Source: Nitrospirota bacterium
GTDB taxonomy: Bacteria > Nitrospirota > Thermodesulfovibrionia > UBA6902
Direction of reading: 5' to 3'
DNA: 35,223 bases
Assembly (NCBI GenBank): GCA_016222905.1
Contig: JACRPZ010000007.1
Span: 1 to 35,223 of the forward strand
A program made the translations under genes and the position numbers. The notes under the pieces are model-generated. The model saw only the letters and a program-made list of their open reading frames with translations, had not been told where the DNA came from and did no database searches. Of this stretch, positions 7,443 through 30,679 are shown piece after piece. Position 1 is the stretch's first letter, and every line of letters starts with the position of its first letter.

Positions 7443-8594
7443 ATGCCAGATATCAATTATCTCCTGAAGAAGGCTATGCAGATGAATGCGTCTGACCTGA
7501 TCATAAAGGCAGGCAATAAACCTATTGCCAGGATCAATGGAAGACTTACCCCTATGGAGGATGAAAGCAGGCTCACTGCAGATGACACCAGCGGTATGGC
7601 TGCGGCTGTTATGACTGATGCACAACGGGAGCTTTTTCAGCGCAAAAACGATATTGACCTCTCGTACAGCATCCCCGGACTTGGAAGGTTCAGATGCAAT
7701 GGTTTCAGCCAGCGGGGAACAACGAGCATTGTCTTCAGGGTTGTCCCTATGAAGCCTCTGGATCTGGAAGAACTGCACCTGCCGGTTGTTCTAAGGAAGA
7801 TCGCTATGGAGTCGAGGGGGCTTATCCTTGTAACAGGGACTACCGGAAGCGGTAAATCCACTACACTGGCGATGATGGTTGATTATATAAATACACATAA
7901 AACAGATCATGTCATCACTATTGAAGACCCCATTGAGTATCTGCACCGGGACAAAAACAGCGTTATAAACCAGAGAGAGATCGGCGCTGACACAGAGTCA
8001 TTCAGTAAGGCGCTGAGGGCTGCCCTGAGGCAGGACCCTGATGTGATCCTTGTCGGTGAGATGCGCGATTTTGAGACTATTCAGACATCAATAACCGCAG
8101 CCGAGACAGGGCATCTTGTTTTAAGCACCTTGCACACTGTTGATGCGACTGAGACGATAAACAGGATTATAACCGTCTTTCCACCGTATCAGCACAATCA
8201 GATAAGACTTCAACTTGCCTCGGTTCTCAAGGCGATAATATCCATGAGGCTGGTTCCAATGGCTGATGGAAAAGGCAGAGTGCCAGCGGTTGAGATACTA
8301 ATAGCGACTGAGAGGATAAAGAGCTGCATAGAGGACGCTGACAAGACAAAGCTTATTCATGATGCCATTGCGGACGGCTACAGCCAGTACGGTATGCAGA
8401 CATTTGATCAGTCTCTTATAGGCCTTTTCAGGAAAGGGCTTATAACTTATGAAGATGCCCTGAGCCGGGCTTCAAAACCGAATGATTTTGCCCTTATGAT
8501 CAAAGGGATTCAGTCAACAAAAGATGTTTATGAATCCGGTGAAGAATTCTTTAAGGATAAGAAGGGCCCTGAAATTGAAAGGTTCTCCGGCTGA
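7443..8594 (+). CDS. pilT: PilT/PilU-type twitching motility ATPase
   Basis: A secretion-superfamily hexameric ATPase that retracts type IV pili. The 383-residue protein has Walker A GTTGSGKST (132-140), aspartate box ITIEDPIEYLH, Walker B VILVGEMRD (201-209) and His box ETGHLVLSTLHT (221-232). The long C-terminal tail after ALMIKGIQ is closer to PilU than to compact PilT, so the paralogue assignment is open. GAGGGAGG precedes the ATG. The gene sits between recA and recX, as in many Nitrospirota and Desulfobacterota. No other pilus gene lies in the window. Confidence 0.93.
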   Translation: MPDINYLLKKAMQMNASDLIIKAGNKPIARINGRLTPMEDESRLTADDTSGMAAAVMTDAQRELFQRKNDIDLSYSIPGLGRFRCNGFSQRGTTSIVFRVVPMKPLDLEELHLPVVLRKIAMESRGLILVTGTTGSGKSTTLAMMVDYINTHKTDHVITIEDPIEYLHRDKNSVINQREIGADTESFSKALRAALRQDPDVILVGEMRDFETIQTSITAAETGHLVLSTLHTVDATETINRIITVFPPYQHNQIRLQLASVLKAIISMRLVPMADGKGRVPAVEILIATERIKSCIEDADKTKLIHDAIADGYSQYGMQTFDQSLIGLFRKGLITYEDALSRASKPNDFALMIKGIQSTKDVYESGEEFFKDKKGPEIERFSG

Positions 8595-18033: not shown

Positions 18034-18600
18034 ATGTATATGACAAAAATTAATAATTATGGCTTGGCAAAAGAATGTTTTGTAACAACTCTTATCGCTG
18101 GCATAATTTTTAGTATCATTGTCAGCGTTATAGCACTGACCGCAGGGAGTGCGCAGGCACATTTAAGGAGTTCAGGAGGGTTGTGCGGAAGAGATGCTTT
18201 ATGTAAAATCCTTGAGGGCAAGGAGTTTGGTCTTATCAAATACTATTCTATGGGATCGGTACTCGTGATCCTTTATGACAGCGGTAAGTTTAGTGGTTTA
18301 ACTCTCTTTGTCCCTGAGGCTGATTACAGGAAAGAAAGAGGCACGATCAGTGACGCTGTTGATTTTTTAGAGGATATCCCAGAGATCAGCGGATTTACAG
18401 TGCTTAAGGGCAAGAGGTCAGCCGGTTGGTTTAAGACTGAAGTTATAGAGGGTGTTTATGTGATAAAACCCCAGTATGAAGTTACAAGCGAATATCGGGC
18501 GCCTGACTACAGATTTTCTGATAAAGGCGGTAAGATCATAATGTATATAACTCCAACATACAGACAACGTGATGATTTTGAGCGGTTACTGATTCATTAA
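18034..18600 (+). CDS. Hypothetical exported or membrane-anchored protein
   Basis: A 188-residue protein I do not recognise. A hydrophobic segment (about residues 18-38) ends in AGSAQA, a possible signal-peptidase site, so the rest is probably periplasmic. The mature part has mixed strands and two nearby cysteines (GLCGRDALC) that could form a disulfide. GGAGG lies 4 bases before ATG 18034; ATG 18040 is equally possible. It has its own promoter and converges on the chemotaxis receptor gene, 31 bases from its end. Confidence 0.65.
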   Translation: MYMTKINNYGLAKECFVTTLIAGIIFSIIVSVIALTAGSAQAHLRSSGGLCGRDALCKILEGKEFGLIKYYSMGSVLVILYDSGKFSGLTLFVPEADYRKERGTISDAVDFLEDIPEISGFTVLKGKRSAGWFKTEVIEGVYVIKPQYEVTSEYRAPDYRFSDKGGKIIMYITPTYRQRDDFERLLIH

Positions 18601-18631: not shown

Positions 18632-20704
18632 TTAAACCTTGAATTTATTCATCTCTTCAAGAAGGTTCAGGGCGTCTTTATGTAAAAGAGAGATGATATC
18701 ATTCATGGCGTTTGAAGCGTCAACAAGCGTGCTGCTTGTGCTCCGGATCTTATCCATTGATCTCACTATTTCAATGCTCTTTTCCTCATGTCTGCTGGTG
18801 GCGTTTGCCATCTGAATAGTCTGTTCGGAAATATTTTCAGAAAGCTCAGCCATCCTGCTGGTCCCCTCTTTCTGTTCATTGACAGCCCTCTGTATATTGC
18901 TTGATAAGTTCTTCACCTTTTCAGTCTCTTTTATAATGAAATTGCTCCCTTTGCTCTGTTCCTGTATTGCGGAGGATATCTTTCCTGTCTGTCCTGTCAT
19001 ATGCTCAATAGAGGTTGTGATATTATTTATTACGAGCGCCTCTTCTTCGGTTGCCCTCTGTATCGCCCTTGCCATTGATGTGGAGGCCTTGGAACTCTCT
19101 ATTATGTTCTTGAGCGTCTCGTTCAAGTCGTTGACAAGCTTCATGCCGCTCTCAACGGTCTTGATGCTGTCAGAGACCATCTTGACGCTTGAACTGGTTT
19201 CAGCCTGCACTGATTTAATAAGTCCGGAAATCTCGCTTGTTGACTCGGTGGTTCTGTGCGCAAGCGCCTTTATCTCCTCAGCCACTACAGCAAACCCTTT
19301 GCCGTGTTCGCCGGATTGAGAAGCAAGAATGGCGGCGTTAAGGGCAAGTAGGGTGGTCCGGTCGGCAACATCGTCTATCACGTTCAGTATTTTGCCGATG
19401 TCAACACTCTTCTTCCCAAGCTTATTTATGGTTTCAGAGAGAGAGACGATGTCGCTCTTTATATTTTGCATCCCCTTTATAGCGGCATTTAATGCCTTCA
19501 TGCCCCTCTCTGAGGCGTTCTTCATGACTGCATCGGCAAGAACAACTGACTCTTTCGCCCTGTCGTCTATATCTCTTGTTGTGGCGTTTACTTCTTCTAT
19601 TGAAGACGCTATGCCGATTGAGGAGTCTGTAAGTTTCTCCGTACTATCTGCCACCTGCTTAATGTTAGCGAGAAGCTCTTCAATAATGGAGGCTGTCTCC
19701 TGAGCTGATTCGCTGTTTATATTCGCGTTTTCAGATATTGATTCCATGGACGTTTTTGTCTCCATGACTGCGGCAGATGTTTCATGGGCGACCTGAGAAA
19801 GGCTCCTCGTGCTTTCAGCCACCTGTGTTATCGCCACGCCCATCTCCTGCACAGCAAGTGTGGCGCTCTGAATCTCATCCTTTTGCATATCGGAGACGTC
19901 CAGCACCTCCCTCGATGTAATTACAACATTCTCCGTAGCCCTTGAAACACTCCGGCTGACAGCCACTATCTTGGCGATCATATCCTTGAGATTAAAGACC
20001 ATCTTGTTTATCGCCTCTCCGAGCTTTGCAACCTCATCCTCGCCTCTAATGTGTATCTTTTCCGTAAGATCGCCTGACGCGATCTTGTTGGCGCCCTTCT
20101 CCATAACAATTATAGGCTGGGTGATAAATCTGGATATAGAAAAGAAAACAAATACGAGTGATATTGCAAAACAGAGCACGGAAATTCCGAGCGCCCATTT
20201 GAGCAGTTCATACAGACGCGACTTTATGACCTCCATTTTAACCCCTAAAATAAGAACTCCGGCAAGTTTCTCCTCTGAATCAAGGATGGGAAACGACAGG
20301 TTATACAAAGGGGGAGCGGTCTGTGTCAGCATCTTTTTGGAAGAAAGCGTGTTAACATACACTTCATCTGTAAGTCTGATGCCTATTTTTTGAATGTCGC
20401 TATGATACAGTATCTTCCCGTCTCTGTCTATGACCATTGAATGTCCAATGGCTTCGTCTCTTGATATGAGTTCCTGAAGTTTTTCGTTTAACCCCTCCAT
20501 TAAATCAATATGAACTCCGAGACTTACTATCTTGCTTATCTCTCTATGCATGCCCTCGCCTATGGCAGAGGTTTTGGAAAGAATGGCGTTCTTATACCTG
20601 TCAAATGCTATATATGTCAGAACACCGGTGTTTACAGTTATGATAAAGAAGAGGATGCCGGAAACTATGAATATTGCCTTTTTCTGAAGTGTAAATCTTA
20701 ACAT
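18632..20704 (-). CDS. Methyl-accepting chemotaxis protein
   Basis: A 690-residue transmembrane chemoreceptor. TM1 (about 10-32) is followed by a periplasmic Cache-like sensor (about 33-170, with [13 protein letters not shown] and [20 protein letters not shown]), TM2 (about 171-193), a HAMP domain and a long cytoplasmic coiled coil. The signalling tip is [28 protein letters not shown]. No C-terminal CheR-binding pentapeptide is visible and no heme motif lies in the sensor. The start is ATG 20704 in TGATG overlap with the upstream stop; GTG 20707 adds one residue. It is the last gene of a four-gene operon with the substrate-binding protein, porin and cytochrome, which suggests it senses a substrate or redox state linked to electron export. 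Confidence 0.93.
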
Positions 20705-21669
20705 CACTTAATGATCTTTGTAGCCGAACTCAAAAGGTCAAACGGCACCTTCAACCCCATGCTTGACGCTTCTTTAAGGTTTATAATCATATCTACTTTG
20801 CCGGGCTCAACTACCGGAAGGGAAGATGCCTTTGCGCCTTTCAGCAGCTTTATGACCAGCTTTGCCGCCTCCCTGCCCTGTTCCTGCGGATTTGCGGTTA
20901 TGGTTAGCAGTACCCCTTTATCCTCTTCTGTGCCTGTCAGTGTGGCTGTAGGAATATTTGCCTTGCGCGCTATATCAATTATGTTGCTGATGCAGTATTG
21001 AGTAGGACAGCTTGTGGTTATCAGAAGCGCATCAACTCCGGTTATCTTTGCGGTATCCTGCGCCCTTTTGATATTAAGCATTACGGATTTAAAACCCATG
21101 CTCTCTTCAAGTTTTTTGACCTCTTCAGCCTGAAGCAACGTGTCCTTCTCAGTGTCGCTGTACAGAACCCCCAGTTTGGAAAAATTCGATATGCTCTTCA
21201 GTTTTTTTAATAGGGTTGAAACGGAGACTTTGGAACTGATGCCTGTTGCGTTCTTAAGGGATATGCCGACTCCGCGAGGGTCAAATACTCCCGCAAATAC
21301 CACGGGTATGGTCGACTGCTCGCCAACTGCTGCCAATGTAGAGGGAGCGCCGTAAGAGACTATTATAGTTACGCCAACCGCGTCGAATTTTCTTGCGGTA
21401 TTCATAAGTGATATAGAGTCAGGAAGCGGTTTCTGAACTATAATCTCAGCTTCCAATATATTGCTGCTTGATGCCTTCTTTTCCGCTATTGCCTCTGATA
21501 AGAGCGTTTCGGTAAATGCCTTGTGCATCTCCTCATAGTACGGGATATTAGGTATCATTATAACACCTATCGTCTTATCAGCAGCCATAACTGAGCCGCT
21601 GTTGAGAACCATGGAAATGACAAAAAGATAAAGCATTAAGCGCCATATTTTTATACTGATTTTTGTCAT
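20704..21669 (-). CDS. ABC-type substrate-binding protein (PF04392-like)
   Basis: A 321-residue periplasmic binding protein with a signal peptide ending near VMA-ADKT. It has the two-lobe pattern of the ABC_sub_bind family: [35 protein letters not shown] and [20 protein letters not shown] pair could form a disulfide. No permease or ATPase gene is adjacent. Its stop overlaps the start of a chemoreceptor gene, and the porin ends 7 bases before its start. A sensory role, presenting a ligand to the receptor, is therefore more likely than transport. Ligands of this family vary (tryptophan and other organics), so none is assigned. Confidence 0.87.
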
Positions 21670-21676
21670 AATCTGC

Positions 21677-23614
21677 TCACCATTTTTTCAGGAATGTCAG
21701 GATTAGGCGATGCCCCCTGCCGTCCTCAATATCGTCATTAGGGTTGTCAAGAATATCATCAAGCTTGCCGTGTAGGTACTCAATCATCAAAGAAGAGTTT
21801 TGCATAAACATGTACTCCCCTGATATTGAATAGACCGTCTTTTCTGTCTTCATCTCGGAAAACGAGTCTATGGCTACAGGCTGAGTCAGGTTTATATCTT
21901 CAACATGAAAGCTTCCACTGCTCCTTGTATTGCTCACGCCCGCATTAAGGTGTACTCTTTCAACGGGAATATACATAGCGTAAATTGAATAGTTATGAGA
22001 GGTGTTTTTGTAAGGGACGTAAGGGTCAATATTGGGTGTACCTGCAGTGTTGTGGTATTCGATATCCTGCTGGGTTTTGTCATTAAGATAAAAATAACTT
22101 GCCGTAAGCGAGAGATCTTTGAGCGGCAGAATAGTTACGCTTCCCAAAATACGATTCTGATTTACATTTCTCTTATCAGCCGCTTCTGTATCTATGTAGT
22201 GAAGTTCGTCCCTCTCCCCATCTTTTATTTTATAGCTTAAGAAGGTGTTTACCTTCTGAACCGGCATCCATGATACCGAGAACTCCCCTTCATCAGAGGT
22301 GTCCGGCTCAATATTTGTGGATGGGTTGTCGGTTGATTTGTGCGTATAACCGGCCTTGAGATTCAGGTTCCTCCTCAGCTTCAGGTCTGCGCTGGCTGAT
22401 GCCTTGCTGGTTGAGGTCTTCTCAGGCAGATCCCATTCTTCAGCGTTCTTTCTGCGAATGTTGTCATAAGAGAATTTCGCCTTCAGCGTCAGGTTTTTCG
22501 AAGCTCTGTATCTTGCGGTCCCTGAAAAAGTGTTTGAAACAGATGAGACGGACGGTTTCACGCTATATGTGTATTTGTTTGAAGGGTCGGATCCATCCGT
22601 GATAGTTACGCTCTCCGGATTATCAACATCCCTGTCGTTATAGCGGTAATTAAAGAAGAATGTCAATTTCTCAATAGGCATCCATGTCACTTCGCCTGAG
22701 CCTGTCACGTAATCCGCCTTAGCTTCGCTGTCGGAGTTCTCCCTGCTTGTATTTGACAAGGTCGCGGACGCTACAAGCCTGCCGGTGTAAGAGGTATGCA
22801 GCCTGATAGTATTGGTTGAACCCTTAAGCTCCGGGATCAGATTGTGGGGATATACTCCAGCCGTTCTGGTGCCTCCCGCGCTGTAGCTATCGTAAAGGAT
22901 ATCATCCCCACCTGCGCGGAACCTCTTCTCGCTGTGTGAAATATCTACTTCAACAGGGCCGAGGTGGCTGTTTGCACCGATTACGATATCTTCTGTTTTC
23001 CAATTGATATCCCTGCTCCTTGACGCCCTCACCTGCTCGTTGAAATAGGCTGCCCCAGACATAAATCTCTGCTGCTGTGTTCCATCCTTCTCAACGAGAC
23101 CCTCCTCAACATACCCATGTAAAGGGAAGTCCGGGGCTTTCAGTCTGAAGAAGAACGAGCTTAGGCTCGTCTTAATGCCGTACTCCTCGCCCGCATCTCT
23201 GACATCAACTCTGGGAGAGGCTGTGGCCGGATCAAGGTCTATCAGCGTTATATTATCAAGGTTGTGGTACAGAGTTGTGTTGAGCCCCCTGAAAGAGAGG
23301 ATATCTTTATATGAGTAACTCAGATCTCCGGCATAGTCTTTTCCGTTATTCACGTTTAAATCAATATGCATTCTATGAGGAAGCATTATCAGTTGCGTCT
23401 CTACCCCAAGAACAATTGAATTATGAAGGTACTCGTACTCCCCAACCTGCGCTGAACCGCTCAGATCAATAAACCTGAAGCCGCCAGAGAGTGTCAATGA
23501 ACTATTGATTTTTCCGCTCTCCTCAGCCGTATCCCCCATGCCTGTTTCTTCGGCAAAGAGGCTGCCATGAAAAAATATAAGAACCAATGTAACAATCAAA
23601 AATATTCTCTTCAT
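21677..23614 (-). CDS. MtrB/PioB-family outer-membrane beta-barrel
   Basis: A 645-residue protein with a signal peptide (MKRIFLIVTLVLIFFHGSLFA) and alternating beta-strands through to a C-terminal aromatic residue (ILTFLKKW). This matches the MtrB/PioB decaheme-associated porins that sheath a multiheme cytochrome across the outer membrane. I start at ATG 23614 because GGAGG precedes it. The frame extends upstream to 23794, but that part overlaps the cytochrome gene. The decaheme gene ends 10 bases before the start. Repeated sheet motifs such as SYTGRLVASATLSNTSREN and KAGYTHKSTD support the barrel. Related families include DMSO-reductase-linked porins. Confidence 0.87.
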   Translation of the reverse strand: MKRIFLIVTLVLIFFHGSLFAEETGMGDTAEESGKINSSLTLSGGFRFIDLSGSAQVGEYEYLHNSIVLGVETQLIMLPHRMHIDLNVNNGKDYAGDLSYSYKDILSFRGLNTTLYHNLDNITLIDLDPATASPRVDVRDAGEEYGIKTSLSSFFFRLKAPDFPLHGYVEEGLVEKDGTQQQRFMSGAAYFNEQVRASRSRDINWKTEDIVIGANSHLGPVEVDISHSEKRFRAGGDDILYDSYSAGGTRTAGVYPHNLIPELKGSTNTIRLHTSYTGRLVASATLSNTSRENSDSEAKADYVTGSGEVTWMPIEKLTFFFNYRYNDRDVDNPESVTITDGSDPSNKYTYSVKPSVSSVSNTFSGTARYRASKNLTLKAKFSYDNIRRKNAEEWDLPEKTSTSKASASADLKLRRNLNLKAGYTHKSTDNPSTNIEPDTSDEGEFSVSWMPVQKVNTFLSYKIKDGERDELHYIDTEAADKRNVNQNRILGSVTILPLKDLSLTASYFYLNDKTQQDIEYHNTAGTPNIDPYVPYKNTSHNYSIYAMYIPVERVHLNAGVSNTRSSGSFHVEDINLTQPVAIDSFSEMKTEKTVYSISGEYMFMQNSSLMIEYLHGKLDDILDNPNDDIEDGRGHRLILTFLKKW

Positions 23615-23624
23615 TTCGCCTCCT

Positions 23625-24620
23625 TTATTGTGTAAACCTTCCGTTTCCGCTTGCGGAAGGAAGGTCAGTGCCGTGTATTTGTGAATGGCAGTCAGTGCAT
23701 CTCGTATTGAAAGCCCCTTTGCCTTCTGCAGCTGAAGTCGAAGATGTCCTGTGAACAGGATGGCACTGAAGACATAAAAACGGCAGACTGACATTAAGCA
23801 GGTTGTTATTTACCGAACCGTGGGGTCTATGGCACGTAAGGCAATCCTCGGTGTTGTCAGCATGCTCAAATACAAAAGGGCCCTCTTTTTCAGCATGGCA
23901 CTTTGTGCATGTCTGCTTTACAGATGATTTTATCAGAGACTTTTCATTGCCGCTGCCATGCGGATTATGGCAGTTATTGCAGAATATCTTCTTTTCAGGA
24001 ACCGGGTGATGGCTCGGCAAAGAGAATTCCGCTTTGATCTCCTGATGACATCTCTCGCACATATCAGCCATCTCGCTGTTTCTTACGATCATGTCAGGCC
24101 CCTTATGGATATTGTGGCAGTCAGAACAGGAAACATCGTTCACGGAATGCGCGCCTGCGTTCCAGTTATGTAGATTGAAAGTAGCATTTGCAGTGTGGCA
24201 TTTAAGGCATATAAGGGATTTTGCCTGCGGCGGCAGATTATTAAGGTCTATAAGCGTATCGTAGGCGCACTTTGTCCGCTTTCCTGCCTTCAAATCCTCC
24301 GCAACCTTTTCCGGTGTAAGCCCTGCTACGGCAAGGCTGCCGGGACCGTGACAGGATTCGCAGTTTACAAGCGGTAGGCCGGAACTCTTTGAAAGCTGCG
24401 CCCCCATTGTACTCGCATCAAGATCGCGCTTTAGCTTATCGTGAAAATGACAGGCAGAGAGGCAGTTATCTGTTCCGATATAGTCTGCATCAAACCTTCC
24501 GGCAAGCAGACGCTCATACTCCTTTATCGGTCCGATCGGCTTGGAAGATTTGAGAGTCTCACAGCCGTTGAGTACAGCTATGGAGACAATAAAAAAAAGG
24601 ACGGCATTTCGTAACGCCAT
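23625..24620 (-). CDS. Decaheme c-type cytochrome, DmsE/MtrA-like lipoprotein
   Basis: A 331-residue multiheme cytochrome. Nine CXXCH motifs lie at about residues 87, 138, 165, 188, 214, 238, 260, 283 and 308. The first expected motif is C53-LSA-C57-H58, with three residues between the cysteines. If it binds heme the protein has ten. The N-terminus has a lipobox (VLNGC, Cys20), so it is probably a lipoprotein, whereas MtrA and DmsE are usually soluble in the periplasm. With the downstream MtrB/PioB gene it would form a conduit moving electrons across the outer membrane. GGGGGTG precedes the ATG. It is the first gene of the four-gene operon and has a clear upstream promoter. The terminal electron acceptor or donor is unknown. 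Confidence 0.92.
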   Translation of the reverse strand: MALRNAVLFFIVSIAVLNGCETLKSSKPIGPIKEYERLLAGRFDADYIGTDNCLSACHFHDKLKRDLDASTMGAQLSKSSGLPLVNCESCHGPGSLAVAGLTPEKVAEDLKAGKRTKCAYDTLIDLNNLPPQAKSLICLKCHTANATFNLHNWNAGAHSVNDVSCSDCHNIHKGPDMIVRNSEMADMCERCHQEIKAEFSLPSHHPVPEKKIFCNNCHNPHGSGNEKSLIKSSVKQTCTKCHAEKEGPFVFEHADNTEDCLTCHRPHGSVNNNLLNVSLPFLCLQCHPVHRTSSTSAAEGKGAFNTRCTDCHSQIHGTDLPSASGNGRFTQ

Positions 24621-24656: not shown

Positions 24657-24737
24657 CAAATTTGCTTCATTACAATTTATATCACTTAAGAAAATAAGTC
24701 AATAGTAAATAATCTTTCCTGTAGAGAAGCAAATTTG
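24657..24737 (-). promoter_or_regulatory. Cytochrome-operon promoter flanked by 12-bp inverted repeats
   Basis: On the minus strand TTGACT (24702-24697) and, after 17 bp, TAAATT (24679-24674) form a promoter with a start near 24667. CAAATTTGCTTC (24657-24668) and GAAGCAAATTTG (24726-24737) are perfect inverted repeats on either side, each containing the palindrome CAAATTTG. One overlaps the transcription start; the other lies about 65 bases upstream. This suggests a paired operator, or the ends of a tiny element. Confidence 0.65.
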
Positions 24738-24778: not shown

Positions 24779-25198
24779 TTATTCCCCGATTATCTTTACA
24801 AGCACCCGTTTCTTTCTTCTGCCGTCAAACTCTCCGTAGAAGATACGCTCCCATGTCCCAAAGTCGAGTTGTCCTTTTGTGACGGCGACAACTACCTCTC
24901 TTCCCATCATCTGTCTTTTTAGATGGGCGTCGCCGTTGTCTTCGCCTGTGCGGTTATGTTGATATTGTGAAATTGGCTCATGCGGGGCGAGTTTCTCAAG
25001 CCATTTCTCATAGTCATGGTGAAGGCCTGATTCATCGTCATTTATAAATACGGAAGCTGTTATATGCATCGCATTGCAGAGCAATAATCCTTCCCTGATG
25101 CCGCTTTCCCGTAAACATTCTTCCACTTGAGAAGTAATATTTACAAATGCGCGTCTGGTAGGCACATTAAACCAGAGTTCTTTGCGGTAACTTTTCAT
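24779..25198 (-). CDS. YjbQ/UPF0047 family protein
   Basis: A 139-residue member of the YjbQ (UPF0047, secondary thiamine-phosphate synthase) family. Signs are [18 protein letters not shown] in the middle and [41 protein letters not shown] at the C-terminus. The conserved histidines H-x-T and HL-K probably coordinate a metal. The physiological role is debated. AGGGAGAGG precedes the ATG. It lies downstream of the NifA-like gene across a palindromic repeat. Confidence 0.9.
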
Positions 25199-25340: not shown

Positions 25341-26876
25341 TTAAGCCTTTTCAATAATCCTGTACTTCTTTATCTTGTACCCAATCTGCCTCGGCGTGAT
25401 CCCGAGCAGCTTTGCGGCCTTTGCCTGGACCCAGCCGGTCTTTTTAAGCGCATCAATAATATTTACCTTCTCGATCTCTCCGATATCCGTCATTAATGAG
25501 GCGGTGTTAATTTTAGACCTCGGCCTGCGGATGCTTAGCGAAACAGGCAGGTCTGAAGCTGCGATCTTTTCCGAAGGCGACATGACAACGAGCCTCTCAA
25601 TAGTATTCTCAAGCTCGCGCACGTTTCCCGGCCATTCATAATCAAGGAATATCTGCATCGCATTTTTATCAAAGGTGACGGAACGGTTATTCTCCTTGTT
25701 GAACTTCTTCAGAAAATACTCTATCAGCACCGGAATGTCTTCGCCTCTCTGCCCCAGCGGGGGAAGAAGGATAGGTATTACGTTAAGCCTGAAATAGAGG
25801 TCTTCCCTGAACCTGCCCTCTGATACCATGCCCTCAAGGTCCCGGCTTGTTGCGGCGATTATCCTGACATCAACCTTTATGGTCTTCTGTCCGCCCACTC
25901 GCTCAAACTCCCTTTCCTGAAGCACGCGCAGTATCTTCGGCTGGAGCGTTAAAGGGAGGTCTCCGATCTCATCAAGAAATATTGTGCCGCCGTTTGCAAG
26001 CTCGAACTTTCCGTTTCTCGTTGATATTGCACCTGTAAAGGCCCCTTTTTCATGGCCAAAGAGTTCTGATTCGAGAAGCCCCTCAGGAATAGAGGCGCAG
26101 TTGAATTTAATAAAAGGCCCTTTGCTTCTGGGGCTCATATAATAGATCGCCTTTGCGATAAGCTCTTTACCTGTGCCGCTCTCGCCCCGTAGAAGCACTG
26201 TAGCCTTTGAAGGCGCGACGCGGTGGACCGCCTCAAAGACCTCCTGCATCCTGTCCGAATTCCCTATTACGTTCTCTATGCTGTATTTACCCTTCAGCTC
26301 CCTCTTCAGGTGCTCCTTCTCTTTTTCAACCTCGTCATAGCTCTCCCAGAGCTTTATGAATTGGGCGGTCAATGATGCAACTATCTTGAGCACCCTAAGG
26401 TCATCATCCACATTGCCATGTTCGGTTGCATATATCCTGTCAACGCTCAGAACGCCAAGCGGCTCTTTCTTAAACTCTATCGGCACACATAGGAAAGAGA
26501 TGCCCTCTTTTTCAGGCCGCGAGCCGGTCTTGTTCAGGAATAGCGGCTCCTTGCCTATATTTGAAATGACCATCGGGCTGTTTCGCTCAAGCACCCTGCC
26601 AACGATGCCTTCGCCGATCCTGTATTTGCCTTTTTCAATATTCTGCTTTGTAAGGCCGTGCGCGGCGACAATGCGCAGTTCTTTAGTGAGGGGATCAAGC
26701 AGGAAGACACATCCGCGCTGAAGGTCGAGCAGTTCGCCGAGGGTGGACATCACGGAAGAGAGGTTCTTCTCAAGATCAAAAGAGGTTGTAAGCACCCGGC
26801 TCACCTCAAGTATTGCGGAGAGCTCCTTGTTCTTTCTGGCAATAAGTTCCGAACTGTCCTGTTTCTCTGAATTCAT
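25341..26876 (-). CDS. nifA: NifA-like sigma-54-dependent activator
   Basis: A 511-residue regulator with an N-terminal GAF domain (about 20-165), an AAA+ domain and a C-terminal Fis-type helix-turn-helix. Walker A is GESGTGKE (231-238) and the sigma-54 contact loop is GAFTGA (278-283). The last helices read [27 protein letters not shown], very close to the NifA DNA-binding motif. The likely job is activation of nitrogen-fixation genes at -24/-12 promoters, but no nif structural gene is in the window. I start at ATG 26876; a TTG 15 bases upstream also opens the frame. Neither start has a good ribosome site. Its promoter lies just upstream. Confidence 0.88.
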
Positions 26877-26887
26877 GGCTAAAATGA

Positions 26888-26952
26888 ACAATTTTGTAGA
26901 CTTTTTGCAAAATTGTCATATTATTTATAACTGAAACAGGGGTAAAATGCAA
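26888..26952 (-). promoter_or_regulatory. nifA promoter and 9-bp inverted-repeat operator
   Basis: On the minus strand TTGCAT (26952-26947), 17 bp and TATAAA (26929-26924) form a promoter with a start near 26917. ACAATTTTG and CAAAATTGT (26888-26896 and 26908-26916) are perfect inverted repeats exactly at +1 to +29. They could be an operator or a leader hairpin controlling nifA. Confidence 0.65.
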
Positions 26953-27295: not shown

Positions 27296-27988
27296 TTACC
27301 CTCTCACCTCATCCCTATCAACCATGCCGTCTTTTAGAAGCACAAGCCTTCGTGCCTTCTCCATTATCATGCTGTCGTGGGTGGAGAAGACAAACGTCAT
27401 GCCGCTCTTCTCGTTGAGTTCCCGCATTATGTCAAGGAGTGTTGAGGCTGTATGCGAGTCGAGGTTTGCGGTTGGCTCGTCGGCAAGGATTATATCAGGC
27501 CTTGAGACCATCGCCCTTGCAATCGCAACGCGCTGCTGTTGGCCGCCTGAAAGCTGATTAGGCAGTCTGTCTTCCATGCCGCTCAGCCCGACCTCAGAGA
27601 GTATGGCTGCGACACGCTCTTTTCTCTCCTTATCGCTCAGGCCCTGAAGGAGCATGATGTACTCGATGTTCTCCTTCACGGTAAGAACAGGAATAAGGTT
27701 ATAAGACTGGAATATAAACCCGATATGGTCGCGCCTGAAGTCGGAAAGCTCACTACCTTTTAATCCGCTTATCAGCCTGCCGGAGAGCATTACATTTCCG
27801 CTTGTTGGAGTATCAAGGCCGCTCATGATATTCAGAAGTGTGGTCTTGCCTGAACCGGATGGCCCGGCGATAGCGGTGAACTCGCCTTTTCGTATAGAGA
27901 GGCTGAGCATGTTAACAGCGTGCACCGAGTCGCCGTTTGTGTCATATATCTTTGAGACCTGCTGTATCTCTATTACATTTTCATTCAT
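27296..27988 (-). CDS. ABC transporter ATP-binding protein (LolD/MacB type)
   Basis: A 230-residue ATPase with Walker [11 protein letters not shown]-loop [10 protein letters not shown], signature [15 protein letters not shown], Walker [13 protein letters not shown] and H-loop FSTHD. It resembles LolD/MacB ATPases that pair with FtsX-type permeases. I start at ATG 27988 (MNENVIEI) because GAGGGG lies 7 bases upstream. The ATG 24 bases earlier starts inside a palindromic repeat and would add eight repeat-coded residues. It is the last gene of a four-gene export operon with two permeases and a LolA-like protein. The cargo is probably lipid or lipoprotein, inferred from the LolA-like partner. Confidence 0.93.
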
Positions 27989-27997
27989 ATTATTATT

Positions 27998-28084
27998 GCC
28001 CCTCTTTGGCAAAGAGGGGTCAGGGGAGATTTTAATATTAATTATAAAATCCCCTTCAGTCCCCCTTTGCTAAAGGGGGATTTT
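27998..28084. repeat. Paired palindromic repeat in the export operon
   Basis: GCCCCTCTTTGGCAAAGAGGGG and a TCAGGGGAGATTTT flank are followed by an inverted second unit, AAAATCCCCTTCAGTCCCCC...TAAAGGGGGATTTT. It is the same family as 4945 and 29356. Its edge provides the GAGGGG ribosome site of the ATPase gene. Confidence 0.85.
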
Positions 28085-28111
28085 CATCTCCTGTCTTGAT
28101 ATATAAATTCT

Positions 28112-29338
28112 TTATATGCTCCTCTGCATAGCCTTTGCAGGCGTCATCTTTGCGGCAAATAGTGCCGGGTATATTGCGGCGACAAGCGAAAAAATAAATA
28201 TGAGAAGCGGATAGATCGTAAACTGGCTCATGGCAAGTTCAGGATAAAGCAGTTCATTGACCGTTACGCCCGCAAACTCTATGCCTCTATAATCTATACC
28301 ATACCACGAAAAGAAGCTTACAACGCCCAATCCAAGCGCAAGCCCCATTATTATGCTAATGGCGGAGAGCGTTGCCGCCTCAAAGAAGATGATGAGCGCC
28401 ATGTTGAGCGGCCTCGTACCTACAGCCCTAAGCACTCCGAACTCAAACATCCTCTCATAAAGTGACATGAATAGAGCGTTCATTATTATCACCGCCACTA
28501 TGCAGAATACGAGAGTCGATGTGATAATGGTGGATATCTCGGTCATCGCTATAACGCCGTCAAGCTGCGGTATCAGGTCTCTCCAGCCTAACGCCTCGTT
28601 GTTGTTTCCTGAATACCTGCGCCAGAAAGTCAGCGTTCTGTCACCCGCGTTGTCAAGGTTTTTGAACTTCAAAACGATCTCATGAGTCCCGCCCGCCAAA
28701 GCAAGAAGCTGACGCGCCTTATCAATATGAATAAATGCCATGCCGCTGTCCGCCTCCCTTACTCCCATATGATATATCCCCGATATCCTGAACATCTCCT
28801 GAGAAAGCTCGCCTGTTCCTGCCTGCGCAACTGTAAGCACAAGCCTGTCGCCAAGCCCTGCCTCCAGCGTCTCAGCCGCCTTTGAGCCTATGAGTATCTG
28901 CCTTTCGCCCTCTGGCTCAAGATATTCACCCTCTTTCACGGCCTCATCAATCATCGAGATATTCTTCTCTTTTTCAGGATCAATGCCGTAAAGCAGCACT
29001 GAGCTCACTCCGGCAGGGGAGCTTAACATTGCGAATGAAGCTGTCCTCGGAGCATAGGATTCAAGAAGGGGTTCTTTATCCAATGAGGCGAGAATATTCT
29101 CTGAAGCGTTTATCGTTTTTTCGACCTCAAGGGTATCGCTGAAACCTTTTGCATGTATCTGCCCCTGCCCGAGGAAGGTGTCAGTAGCTGTCATTATCAT
29201 TCCCTTCAGCATCCCTATGTAAAGGCCGTCTATGAGCATGAGGGAGGCAAGAGTGATGCCCACGGCTGTTCCTGAGAGGAATGTCCTCCTCTTGTTCCTA
29301 AGGACATTCCGCCATGCAAGTTTCAGAAGCATTTTCAT
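28112..29338 (-). CDS. FtsX/LolE-type ABC permease
   Basis: A 408-residue permease. One N-terminal membrane helix is preceded by the basic LAWRNVLRNKRRT coupling segment and followed by a large periplasmic MacB-like domain (about 45-245). Three C-terminal helices (about 268-395) complete the FtsX fold, with the EFGVLRAVGTRPLNMALIIFFEA loop typical of LolC/E. AGGAAA lies upstream of the ATG. It pairs with a second, similar permease upstream on the same strand and with the ATPase downstream, giving a heterodimeric transporter. Confidence 0.92.
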   Translation of the reverse strand: MKMLLKLAWRNVLRNKRRTFLSGTAVGITLASLMLIDGLYIGMLKGMIMTATDTFLGQGQIHAKGFSDTLEVEKTINASENILASLDKEPLLESYAPRTASFAMLSSPAGVSSVLLYGIDPEKEKNISMIDEAVKEGEYLEPEGERQILIGSKAAETLEAGLGDRLVLTVAQAGTGELSQEMFRISGIYHMGVREADSGMAFIHIDKARQLLALAGGTHEIVLKFKNLDNAGDRTLTFWRRYSGNNNEALGWRDLIPQLDGVIAMTEISTIITSTLVFCIVAVIIMNALFMSLYERMFEFGVLRAVGTRPLNMALIIFFEAATLSAISIIMGLALGLGVVSFFSWYGIDYRGIEFAGVTVNELLYPELAMSQFTIYPLLIFIFSLVAAIYPALFAAKMTPAKAMQRSI

Positions 29339-29355
29339 TATATTTTCCTGTTATT

Positions 29356-29435
29356 CCCACTTTGAAAAAGGGGGAGCAAGGGGGATTTTATGATGATTTA
29401 AAAATCTCCCCATACCCCTCTTTGCCAAAGAGGGG
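29356..29435. repeat. Paired palindromic repeat between the permease genes
   Basis: CCCACTTTGAAAAAGGGGGAGC with a G-rich flank is followed by AAATCTCCCC and CCCCTCTTTGCCAAAGAGGGG. The two halves are in opposite orientation, as at 4945 and 27998. Confidence 0.85.
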
Positions 29436-29461
29436 ATATTTACTGATGATAAATTCATATC

Positions 29462-30679
29462 CTAGTTTGCCCTCATCGCTTTCACCGGCATTATCTTTGC
29501 GGCCCTTACCGCAGGCCATATGCTCACTATTACAGCCGTTCCCATAACTATGAGCGGCGGTACCACAATAGACCTTAAACTTATTTCAGAGGTCAGTCTC
29601 CTGAAGAAGTAACCGCCGTACTCTATAGGCGTGGGGTATGTGATCCCGTATACATGAAACCACCAGTTGGCAAGCACTCCTATTATCGTCCCTGCTGTTA
29701 TGCTGAGCAGAGAGAGGAATAATGTCTCAAAGAGTATCAACTGAAAAATCTGCGAGGGTCTTGTGCCTAACGCCCTGAGCACCCCGAACTCCCGCGTCCT
29801 CTCAAGCACAACCATGAGGATCGTATTCAGCACGCCGACAGCTATGATAATGGTAAAGACTATGATAGTGTACCTGTTGCCTTTGAGGTCTGCCCGCATC
29901 GCTTTATAAAACTGCGCCTCCACAACCTGCCACGGGTCAACATCAATCCCGGTGTCGTTAAGGGTTTCAGCGATTAGGCCCGCGGCCTCAGGCGTCTTTG
30001 AATGATCGTTTAGGACAACGGCTATCTCATGAACGCTTCTGTCCATTGAGAGAAACTCCTGCAGTACATTTATATGAATGTAGCATTTTGACTCGCCGTA
30101 GGACTTCCCCTCGCTGCCGGTTATGCCCGTGACCTTATAAAGACCGTTTGCCACAGAGCCGTCAACGCTCTGCGCTATCAGAGCTATCTCATCTCCCAGT
30201 CCAACTCCTAACACCCTTGCAAGGCCGTCGCTTATCACAACCTCCTGCTTCGGAGAAGCTGATAAGAAAATCCCTTTGCTCACCTTATTCTTGAGCCGGG
30301 TCGTCTTTGCCTCTCTGATGGGATCAATTCCCATGACAGTTACTCCTGTTGTCTTCGTTCCGGCAAAGGCAAGCGCAGGCGTATAAACCCTCGGTGCCCA
30401 TGAATTTACATATGGGACTGATTCTATCTTTCTGCCGATTGAATCAGGAGAGGCGAGGGACTTGTATATCGAGGGCTTGTCAAGATAGCCTTTTTTATGG
30501 ATCTGTATGTGTCCCGTGTGGTCGCGAGTGAACATGTCTATGAGATTGCCGTAGGTGCCGTCTATCATGCCGAAGAAGAGACCGAAGAGGGCGCAGCCTC
30601 CTGCCATCATCATGCCTGTAAGTATTGAGCGCCACTTTCTGCGGAAGATGTTGCGGAAGGCTATCTTATGGATGATCAT
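29462..30679 (-). CDS. FtsX/LolC-type ABC permease
   Basis: A 405-residue permease with the same architecture as its neighbour: basic IAFRNIFRRKWRS, helix 1, a periplasmic MacB-like domain (about 45-240) and three C-terminal helices with REFGVLRALGTRPSQIFQLILFETLF. It follows the LolA-like gene and precedes the second permease; each gap holds a palindromic repeat. The LolA-like neighbour supports outer-membrane lipid or lipoprotein export rather than drug efflux, but no MacA-type adaptor or TolC is seen. Confidence 0.92.
   Translation of the reverse strand: MIIHKIAFRNIFRRKWRSILTGMMMAGGCALFGLFFGMIDGTYGNLIDMFTRDHTGHIQIHKKGYLDKPSIYKSLASPDSIGRKIESVPYVNSWAPRVYTPALAFAGTKTTGVTVMGIDPIREAKTTRLKNKVSKGIFLSASPKQEVVISDGLARVLGVGLGDEIALIAQSVDGSVANGLYKVTGITGSEGKSYGESKCYIHINVLQEFLSMDRSVHEIAVVLNDHSKTPEAAGLIAETLNDTGIDVDPWQVVEAQFYKAMRADLKGNRYTIIVFTIIIAVGVLNTILMVVLERTREFGVLRALGTRPSQIFQLILFETLFLSLLSITAGTIIGVLANWWFHVYGITYPTPIEYGGYFFRRLTSEISLRSIVVPPLIVMGTAVIVSIWPAVRAAKIMPVKAMRAN

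Follow-up and report, generated by a model that had tools for sequence, protein, structure and literature searches.

In this study, we describe an operon of a Nitrospirota bacterium that combines an outer-membrane electron conduit with a periplasmic substrate-binding protein (SBP) and a chemoreceptor. It is contained in a stretch of 35,223 nucleotides (contig JACRPZ010000007.1 of assembly GCA_016222905.1), which we refer to as the window. The association of an SBP-chemoreceptor sensor with an outer-membrane conduit is real, conserved and apparently undescribed, and searches of the open-access literature found no earlier account of an operon with this composition. The four genes follow each other on the minus strand, encoding a decaheme lipoprotein cytochrome, an MtrB-type barrel, an SBP of the family PF04392 and a Cache-HAMP chemoreceptor (Table 1), with 10 bases separating cytochrome and porin, 7 bases separating porin and SBP and an overlap of 4 bases between the GTG start of the receptor and the stop of the SBP. 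The operon is bounded downstream by a convergent plus-strand gene (18034-18600) and upstream by a gap of 158 bases carrying a promoter-like site. A preliminary description by a model, based on the sequence, had already proposed this operon; its gene composition, coordinates, gaps and terminal overlap were all reproduced exactly, and the assignment as an operon is supported.

The evidence for a functional unit comes from a synteny survey of 230 genomes of the same class, queried with the porin and the SBP, in which gene order around either gene was read at 100 loci. The SBP is located directly downstream of the porin and on the same strand at 63 of 82 porin places, corresponding to 61 of 75 porin-bearing genomes, and at least three of the remaining places (G198, G211 and G132) end at a contig edge on the downstream side. 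This conservation of gene order across the class excludes a chance neighbourhood of the four genes. The module following the SBP, whose identity was checked by Pfam, is of three types. In type I, to which the window belongs (33 porin-linked loci), the next gene encodes a 40H-like receptor of about 690 residues, with additional cases in a locus at a contig edge and in two genomes where the receptor precedes the cytochrome. In type II (16 porin-linked loci, 28 porin-free ones and 3 truncated by a contig end), the SBP is followed by a second SBP of the family PF12974 and a HAMP-GAF histidine kinase, and in type III (8 loci) by a 13-haem MtrC-like cytochrome and a receptor of about 500 residues with a different tip. 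The exact same 4-base overlap recurs at 22 of 34 SBP-receptor junctions. Wherever the neighbour in a porin-linked type is known, the partner of the SBP is or includes a signal transducer, either a receptor or a histidine kinase, and no ABC permease or ATPase was found beside the SBP in any porin-linked locus read. Since the SBP is kept after the porin while the next module is one of three, the SBP goes with the conduit, and the receptor is one among several exchangeable outputs. That SBP and receptor are tied to the conduit, as proposed, and that no transporter lies next to the SBP are both borne out by these loci. The preliminary description had also raised the prospect that both genes might be scattered independently of the cytochrome-porin pair in related operons, which does not apply to the SBP; the place of the receptor can be taken by other modules.

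Several loci outside the type I pattern illustrate the variability of these modules. In the type III loci (L071, L073, L075, L076, L078, L079, L088 and L195), the 13-haem cytochrome is inserted between the SBP and a receptor whose tip has the canonical sequence IEAARAGE, and type III members of the family f1 have flagella. The porin-free type II operons (L091-L101 and L169-L215) encode the PF04392 SBP, the PF12974 SBP and the HAMP-GAF histidine kinase; one of them, L091, is located directly after an anthranilate synthase gene, and similar genes of about 500 codons precede several relatives, which hints at an aromatic cue in these cases. A close relative, L062 (G005:C57), has kept an SBP with two cysteines in a C-x4-C arrangement and contains a PF12974 SBP in place of the receptor with no adjacent kinase, possibly representing a half-exchanged module. 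Finally, the window genome encodes a second PF04392 SBP (L118:7796-10753, G000:C87); the gene after it codes for a Cache-HAMP hybrid histidine kinase with a receiver domain, which makes this a second orphan SBP-transducer pair.

The first two genes resemble components of known electron conduits. The cytochrome scores 250 bits against the DmsE-family decaheme model TIGR03508 (cutoff 192), and its counterpart in the Mtr complex 6R2Q is the MtrA chain (6r2q_A, E 4.8e-44), to which the PDB copy assigns a wrong molecule name. Its ten haem motifs comprise nine CXXCH and one CX3CH, a pattern present in 65 of 66 relatives, and there is no second TIGR03508 decaheme above the curated cutoff in the window genome. 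The porin was listed as an open reading frame spanning 21677-23794, with its real start being the ATG at 23614 behind AAAGGAGG, from which the 10-base distance to the cytochrome follows. On the level of sequence, it shows solely a sub-threshold match to the GSU2204 family, and its profile found no match in the PDB; its identity was settled by the fold of an AlphaFold2 model (pLDDT 87.9), for which Foldseek places MtrB (6r2q_B) first (E 1.6e-20, TM 0.74); the next barrel follows at E 1e-9, some eleven orders of magnitude behind. The operon is thus predicted to encode an MtrAB-type conduit, as judged from sequence for the MtrA component and from the modelled structure for MtrB. MtrA-like cytochromes and MtrB-like barrels jointly move electrons across the outer membrane. 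Since the operon contains no MtrC-type outer-surface cytochrome, we classify it as MtrAB-type rather than MtrCAB; such a surface cytochrome is not required in PioAB and MtoAB. The adjacency of genes for a decaheme MtrA-type cytochrome and an MtrB-type barrel is shared with MtrAB (Shewanella, 6R2Q), PioAB and MtoAB, but unlike in these systems the cytochrome is a lipoprotein, has one haem site of the CX3CH kind and is encoded upstream of an SBP and a transducer. The decaheme and porin of the GSU2203/GSU2204 family (NF041028, NF041027) are likewise homologous to the pair described here, which scores below the family cutoffs and differs by a porin without CXXCH and by the SBP and receptor that come next.

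The SBP shows features that distinguish it from its closest structural relatives. Its model (pLDDT 92.5) best matches the PDB entries 3lft, 6hni and 3lkv (TM 0.77-0.87), the structures of TrpX, CD0873 and VC_1101, which bind Trp, Tyr and Phe (PMC6816091). Despite the common family and fold, the pocket signature of these proteins has been lost: their shared TPxAQ segment reads AP[AS]TL, their DN motif is replaced by [SG]C and the Tyr/Gln position conferring selectivity is occupied by Pro. Because all of these pocket residues are changed, binding of an amino acid in a similar manner is unlikely. The protein has instead gained the C-x4-C motif formed by C221 and C226, its sole two cysteines, and it is paired with a receptor rather than with genes of an ABC transporter. 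Among type I SBPs, the two cysteines are found at the position of the DN loop in 37/37 and 36/37 cases respectively, whereas the motif is nearly absent from type II and type III. In the same genomes, the mean pairwise identity is 62% for the SBP and 46% for the Cache domain of the receptor, a difference that would be expected if the ligand were held by the SBP and the SBP docked onto the Cache domain. Periplasmic binding proteins that report to a receptor or kinase are known from MBP-Tar, RBP-Trg, TorT-TorS and LuxP-LuxQ, of which TorT-TorS governs a respiratory system. The pair described here would follow the same principle with an SBP of a different family and is encoded in an electron-conduit operon.

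The receptor contains two transmembrane helices and is assigned to the 40H-like class by alignment. Its descending arm is 21 residues (three heptads) longer than that of a 34H-like receptor, with one arm counted, and its C terminus carries no CheR tether. The window genome encodes five receptors and two chemosensory clusters, one of which (C26) contains a 34H-like receptor. The second cluster (C36; L117) encodes, in this order, CheY, CheA, an AAA ATPase, CheW, a receptor-PF12974 fusion, a receptor, CheW, a HEAT protein, CheR and CheB. The operon receptor has the extended signalling domain and the tip type of the C36 receptors. Its tip aligns without gaps to the first receptor of C36 (54% identity over 125 residues), whereas its alignment to the 34H receptor requires gaps. 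Most or all genes of C36 are kept in 15 of the 20 relatives examined; in five genomes of type I or related to it (L223, L224, L225, L228 and L229), just CheY, CheA and the ATPase are found together, with the rest located elsewhere or not found. The corresponding CheA is well separated by score (above 500 bits compared to below 350 for others) and, in a set of 101 genomes, it is present in all 12 type I genomes but only in 6 of the 16 remaining genomes with a porin (Fisher p 0.0009, kinship ignored). The fusion receptor (L117:5518-8379, G000:C36; also L218-L222, L226, L227 and L231-L237) combines a periplasmic c-haem Cache-like domain, which contains a CXXCH motif and matches PF21563, with a phosphonate-binding-type PF12974 domain that is C-terminal to the signalling domain. 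As the protein has two transmembrane helices, the latter is expected in the cytoplasm, an unusual location for its family. The periplasmic CXXCH is kept in 15/15 full receptors (from 14 of the 20 relatives and the window genome), and it is likewise carried by the c-haem Cache sensors GSU0582 and GSU0935 (PMC12889525).

The order of CheA, ATPase and CheW and the presence of 40H receptors make the C36 cluster resemble Esn, of the Geobacter beta-group, as far as gene order and receptor class can tell. In Geobacter sulfurreducens, GSU2222-2220 encode CheA, ATPase and CheW that operate with 40H receptors (PMC5585712). The system consists of EsnA (GSU1704), EsnB (GSU2220), the ATPase GSU2221, EsnC (GSU2222) and EsnD (GSU3376); EsnA-D are required when cells grow on electrodes but dispensable on Fe(III) oxide, and esn mutants are poor at electrode colonisation (PMC5585712). 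An effect of the Geobacter beta-group cluster 5 on extracellular matrix was stated from unpublished observations (PMC2577667). Esn and the system described here share the receptor class, the gene order and a tie to extracellular electron transfer and not to flagella. EsnA contains a cytoplasmic GAF domain, has no periplasmic input and is encoded outside a conduit operon, whereas the receptor described here contains a Cache domain, has an SBP partner and is part of the conduit operon. In Shewanella, congregation at insoluble acceptors depends on the Cache receptor SO_2240 and on mtrBC/omcA (PMC5789149). That process has a Cache chemoreceptor and Mtr genes in common with our system, but it is based on swimming, with no known SBP. 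SO_2240 and mtrBC/omcA are not known to be linked, unlike the respective genes of the window, whose host is flagellum-less.

The absence of a flagellum bears directly on the possible output. The window genome (G000; 2.84 Mb in 90 contigs) has a completeness rating of 100%, and neither flagellin nor FlhA was found in it. Both are also absent from 11 of the 12 type I genomes, whereas 12 of the 16 other genomes with a porin do encode FlhA (p 0.0006 for the contrast, not corrected for kinship). We thus reject flagellar swimming as output in the window genome, where the operon does not serve swimming towards an acceptor. The proposal that the cell would move according to a ligand, for which a shuttle, quinone, flavin or metal may be a candidate, is in consequence not supported, and the receptor is 40H-like and matches the Esn-like cluster rather than the 34H one.

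The interpretation that we favour, and which we consider probable on balance, is that a periplasmic sensor dedicated to the conduit signals to a chemosensory array that is not flagellar. The operon would build one outer-membrane electron conduit together with a private sensory arm, in which the SBP, whose pocket with its two cysteines differs from that of amino-acid-binding relatives, may detect a small ligand or a redox or soft-metal state tied to the conduit. Once loaded, the SBP would dock on the receptor's Cache domain, as suggested by the pairing of their genes, and the receptor would join an array of the Geobacter Esn kind, consisting of CheA-ATPase-CheW, the c-haem Cache receptor, CheR and CheB. 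In a cell lacking a flagellum, the likely output is not swimming but the control of attachment, matrix, pili or a second messenger, by which cells would settle on or leave a suitable electron acceptor. In a more specific version, put forward as a tentative idea with a limited chance of being correct, C-x4-C would turn the SBP into a switch in the periplasm that responds to redox changes or soft metals. This switch would register the state of the conduit and signal via the receptor to the Esn-like array with its c-haem Cache receptor. Several points weigh against the favoured interpretation. The sensory arm is predicted from genes and modelled structures, and the Cache domain could bind a ligand by itself. 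The likeness to Esn was established by comparison with the gene order and receptor class described in PMC5585712 and PMC2577667 rather than with Geobacter sequences, and it is from the match of receptor class and tip to C36 that we infer a receptor coupled to the Esn-like CheA and not to the 34H cluster C26 or to a pilus pathway. In addition, the statistical associations among receptor type, cysteines and CheA lack phylogenetic independence. As the partner type changes about three times on the SBP tree, a strict correlation with the cysteines relies on about three independent contrasts, of which two agree, none disagrees and one is neutral, which is not significant.

The same sensory pair could alternatively direct chemotactic twitching by type IV pili, with cells crawling to the acceptor. 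The window genome offers three pilT-family proteins over the cutoff and two chemosensory clusters, and its pilT genes leave room for such an output; yet no PilG/PilH-type cluster was recognised beside CheA and one cluster resembles Esn, whose mutants are impaired in colonising electrodes (PMC5585712), and we consider twitching unlikely. One of the pilT-family ATPases is encoded inside the window (7443-8594, plus strand) directly after recA. Even less likely is an SBP that acts as component of an importer or as accessory of the conduit, such as a metal- or haem-related partner, with a merely co-expressed receptor. Such a role would agree with the PF04392 proteins of solved structure, TrpX and CD0873, being ABC importer proteins, and with an SBP that follows the porin even where the receptor is replaced. 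It is at odds with the lack of a permease or ATPase beside the SBP in the porin-linked loci read, with three unrelated output modules that all are or include signal transducers and with porin-free SBP copies that accompany a second SBP and a histidine kinase. That the pair would sense an aromatic amino acid, as a signal for nutrients that has nothing to do with electron transfer, appears very improbable. The ligands of TrpX, CD0873 and VC_1101 and the anthranilate synthase gene preceding the porin-free L091 would speak for it, but an aromatic amino acid as ligand of the SBP is disfavoured by the three altered pocket elements described above.

Table 1. Features of the conduit-sensor operon, with positions in the window.
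Feature	Position	Strand	Basis
Promoter-like site upstream of the operon, TTGACT-17-TAAATT	24674..24702	-	Weak evidence; such sites are no commoner than in shuffled sequence
MtrA/DmsE-type decaheme cytochrome c lipoprotein, 331 aa	23625..24620	-	TIGR03508 and 6r2q_A matches
Cytochrome lipobox LNGC, aa 17-20	24561..24572	-	Sequence
First haem motif CX3CH (CLSACH, aa 53-58)	24447..24464	-	Motif count
MtrB/PioB-type outer-membrane barrel, 645 aa from ATG 23614	21677..23614	-	AlphaFold2 model and Foldseek
PF04392 periplasmic SBP, 321 aa, signal peptide without lipobox	20704..21669	-	PF04392, E 7.5e-23
SBP C-x4-C motif, C221-P-T-Q-Y-C226	20992..21009	-	Sequence alignment
Chemoreceptor, 691 aa, two transmembrane helices	18632..20707	-	sCache_3_2, HAMP, MCPsignal
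Periplasmic sCache_3_2 sensor domain, aa 45-169	20201..20575	-	E 1.5e-9
HAMP domain, aa 191-241	19985..20137	-	Domain search
Signalling hairpin tip, 40H-like	19292..19351	-	Alignment

Further upstream on the minus strand, the window contains genes for a LolD-like ATPase and two LolCE-like permeases (27296-30679), with a NifA-family regulator (25341-26891) and a YjbQ/UPF0047 gene (24779-25198) located between them and the operon. No RNA families or tRNAs were found in the window. Among public sequences, the nearest relatives of the SBP locus all come from metagenome-assembled genomes of Nitrospirae/Nitrospirota.

Collectively, our analysis concerns the long-open question of how bacteria sense solid or extracellular electron acceptors. 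The Esn system of Geobacter and the congregation of Shewanella show that chemoreceptors matter in this process but not what they sense. In the operon described here, a dedicated binding protein and a receptor are encoded with the conduit itself, an arrangement conserved over many genera in dozens of related species, so that the sensory input could be found by the purification of one soluble protein. The three exchangeable modules, consisting of a receptor, a two-component kinase or a multihaem cytochrome with a receptor, provide a natural experiment on how signals from extracellular respiration are used in organisms with and without flagella. If the SBP indeed acted as a redox or soft-metal switch, the operon would be part of a chemosensory system with which the cell keeps track of its extracellular respiration.

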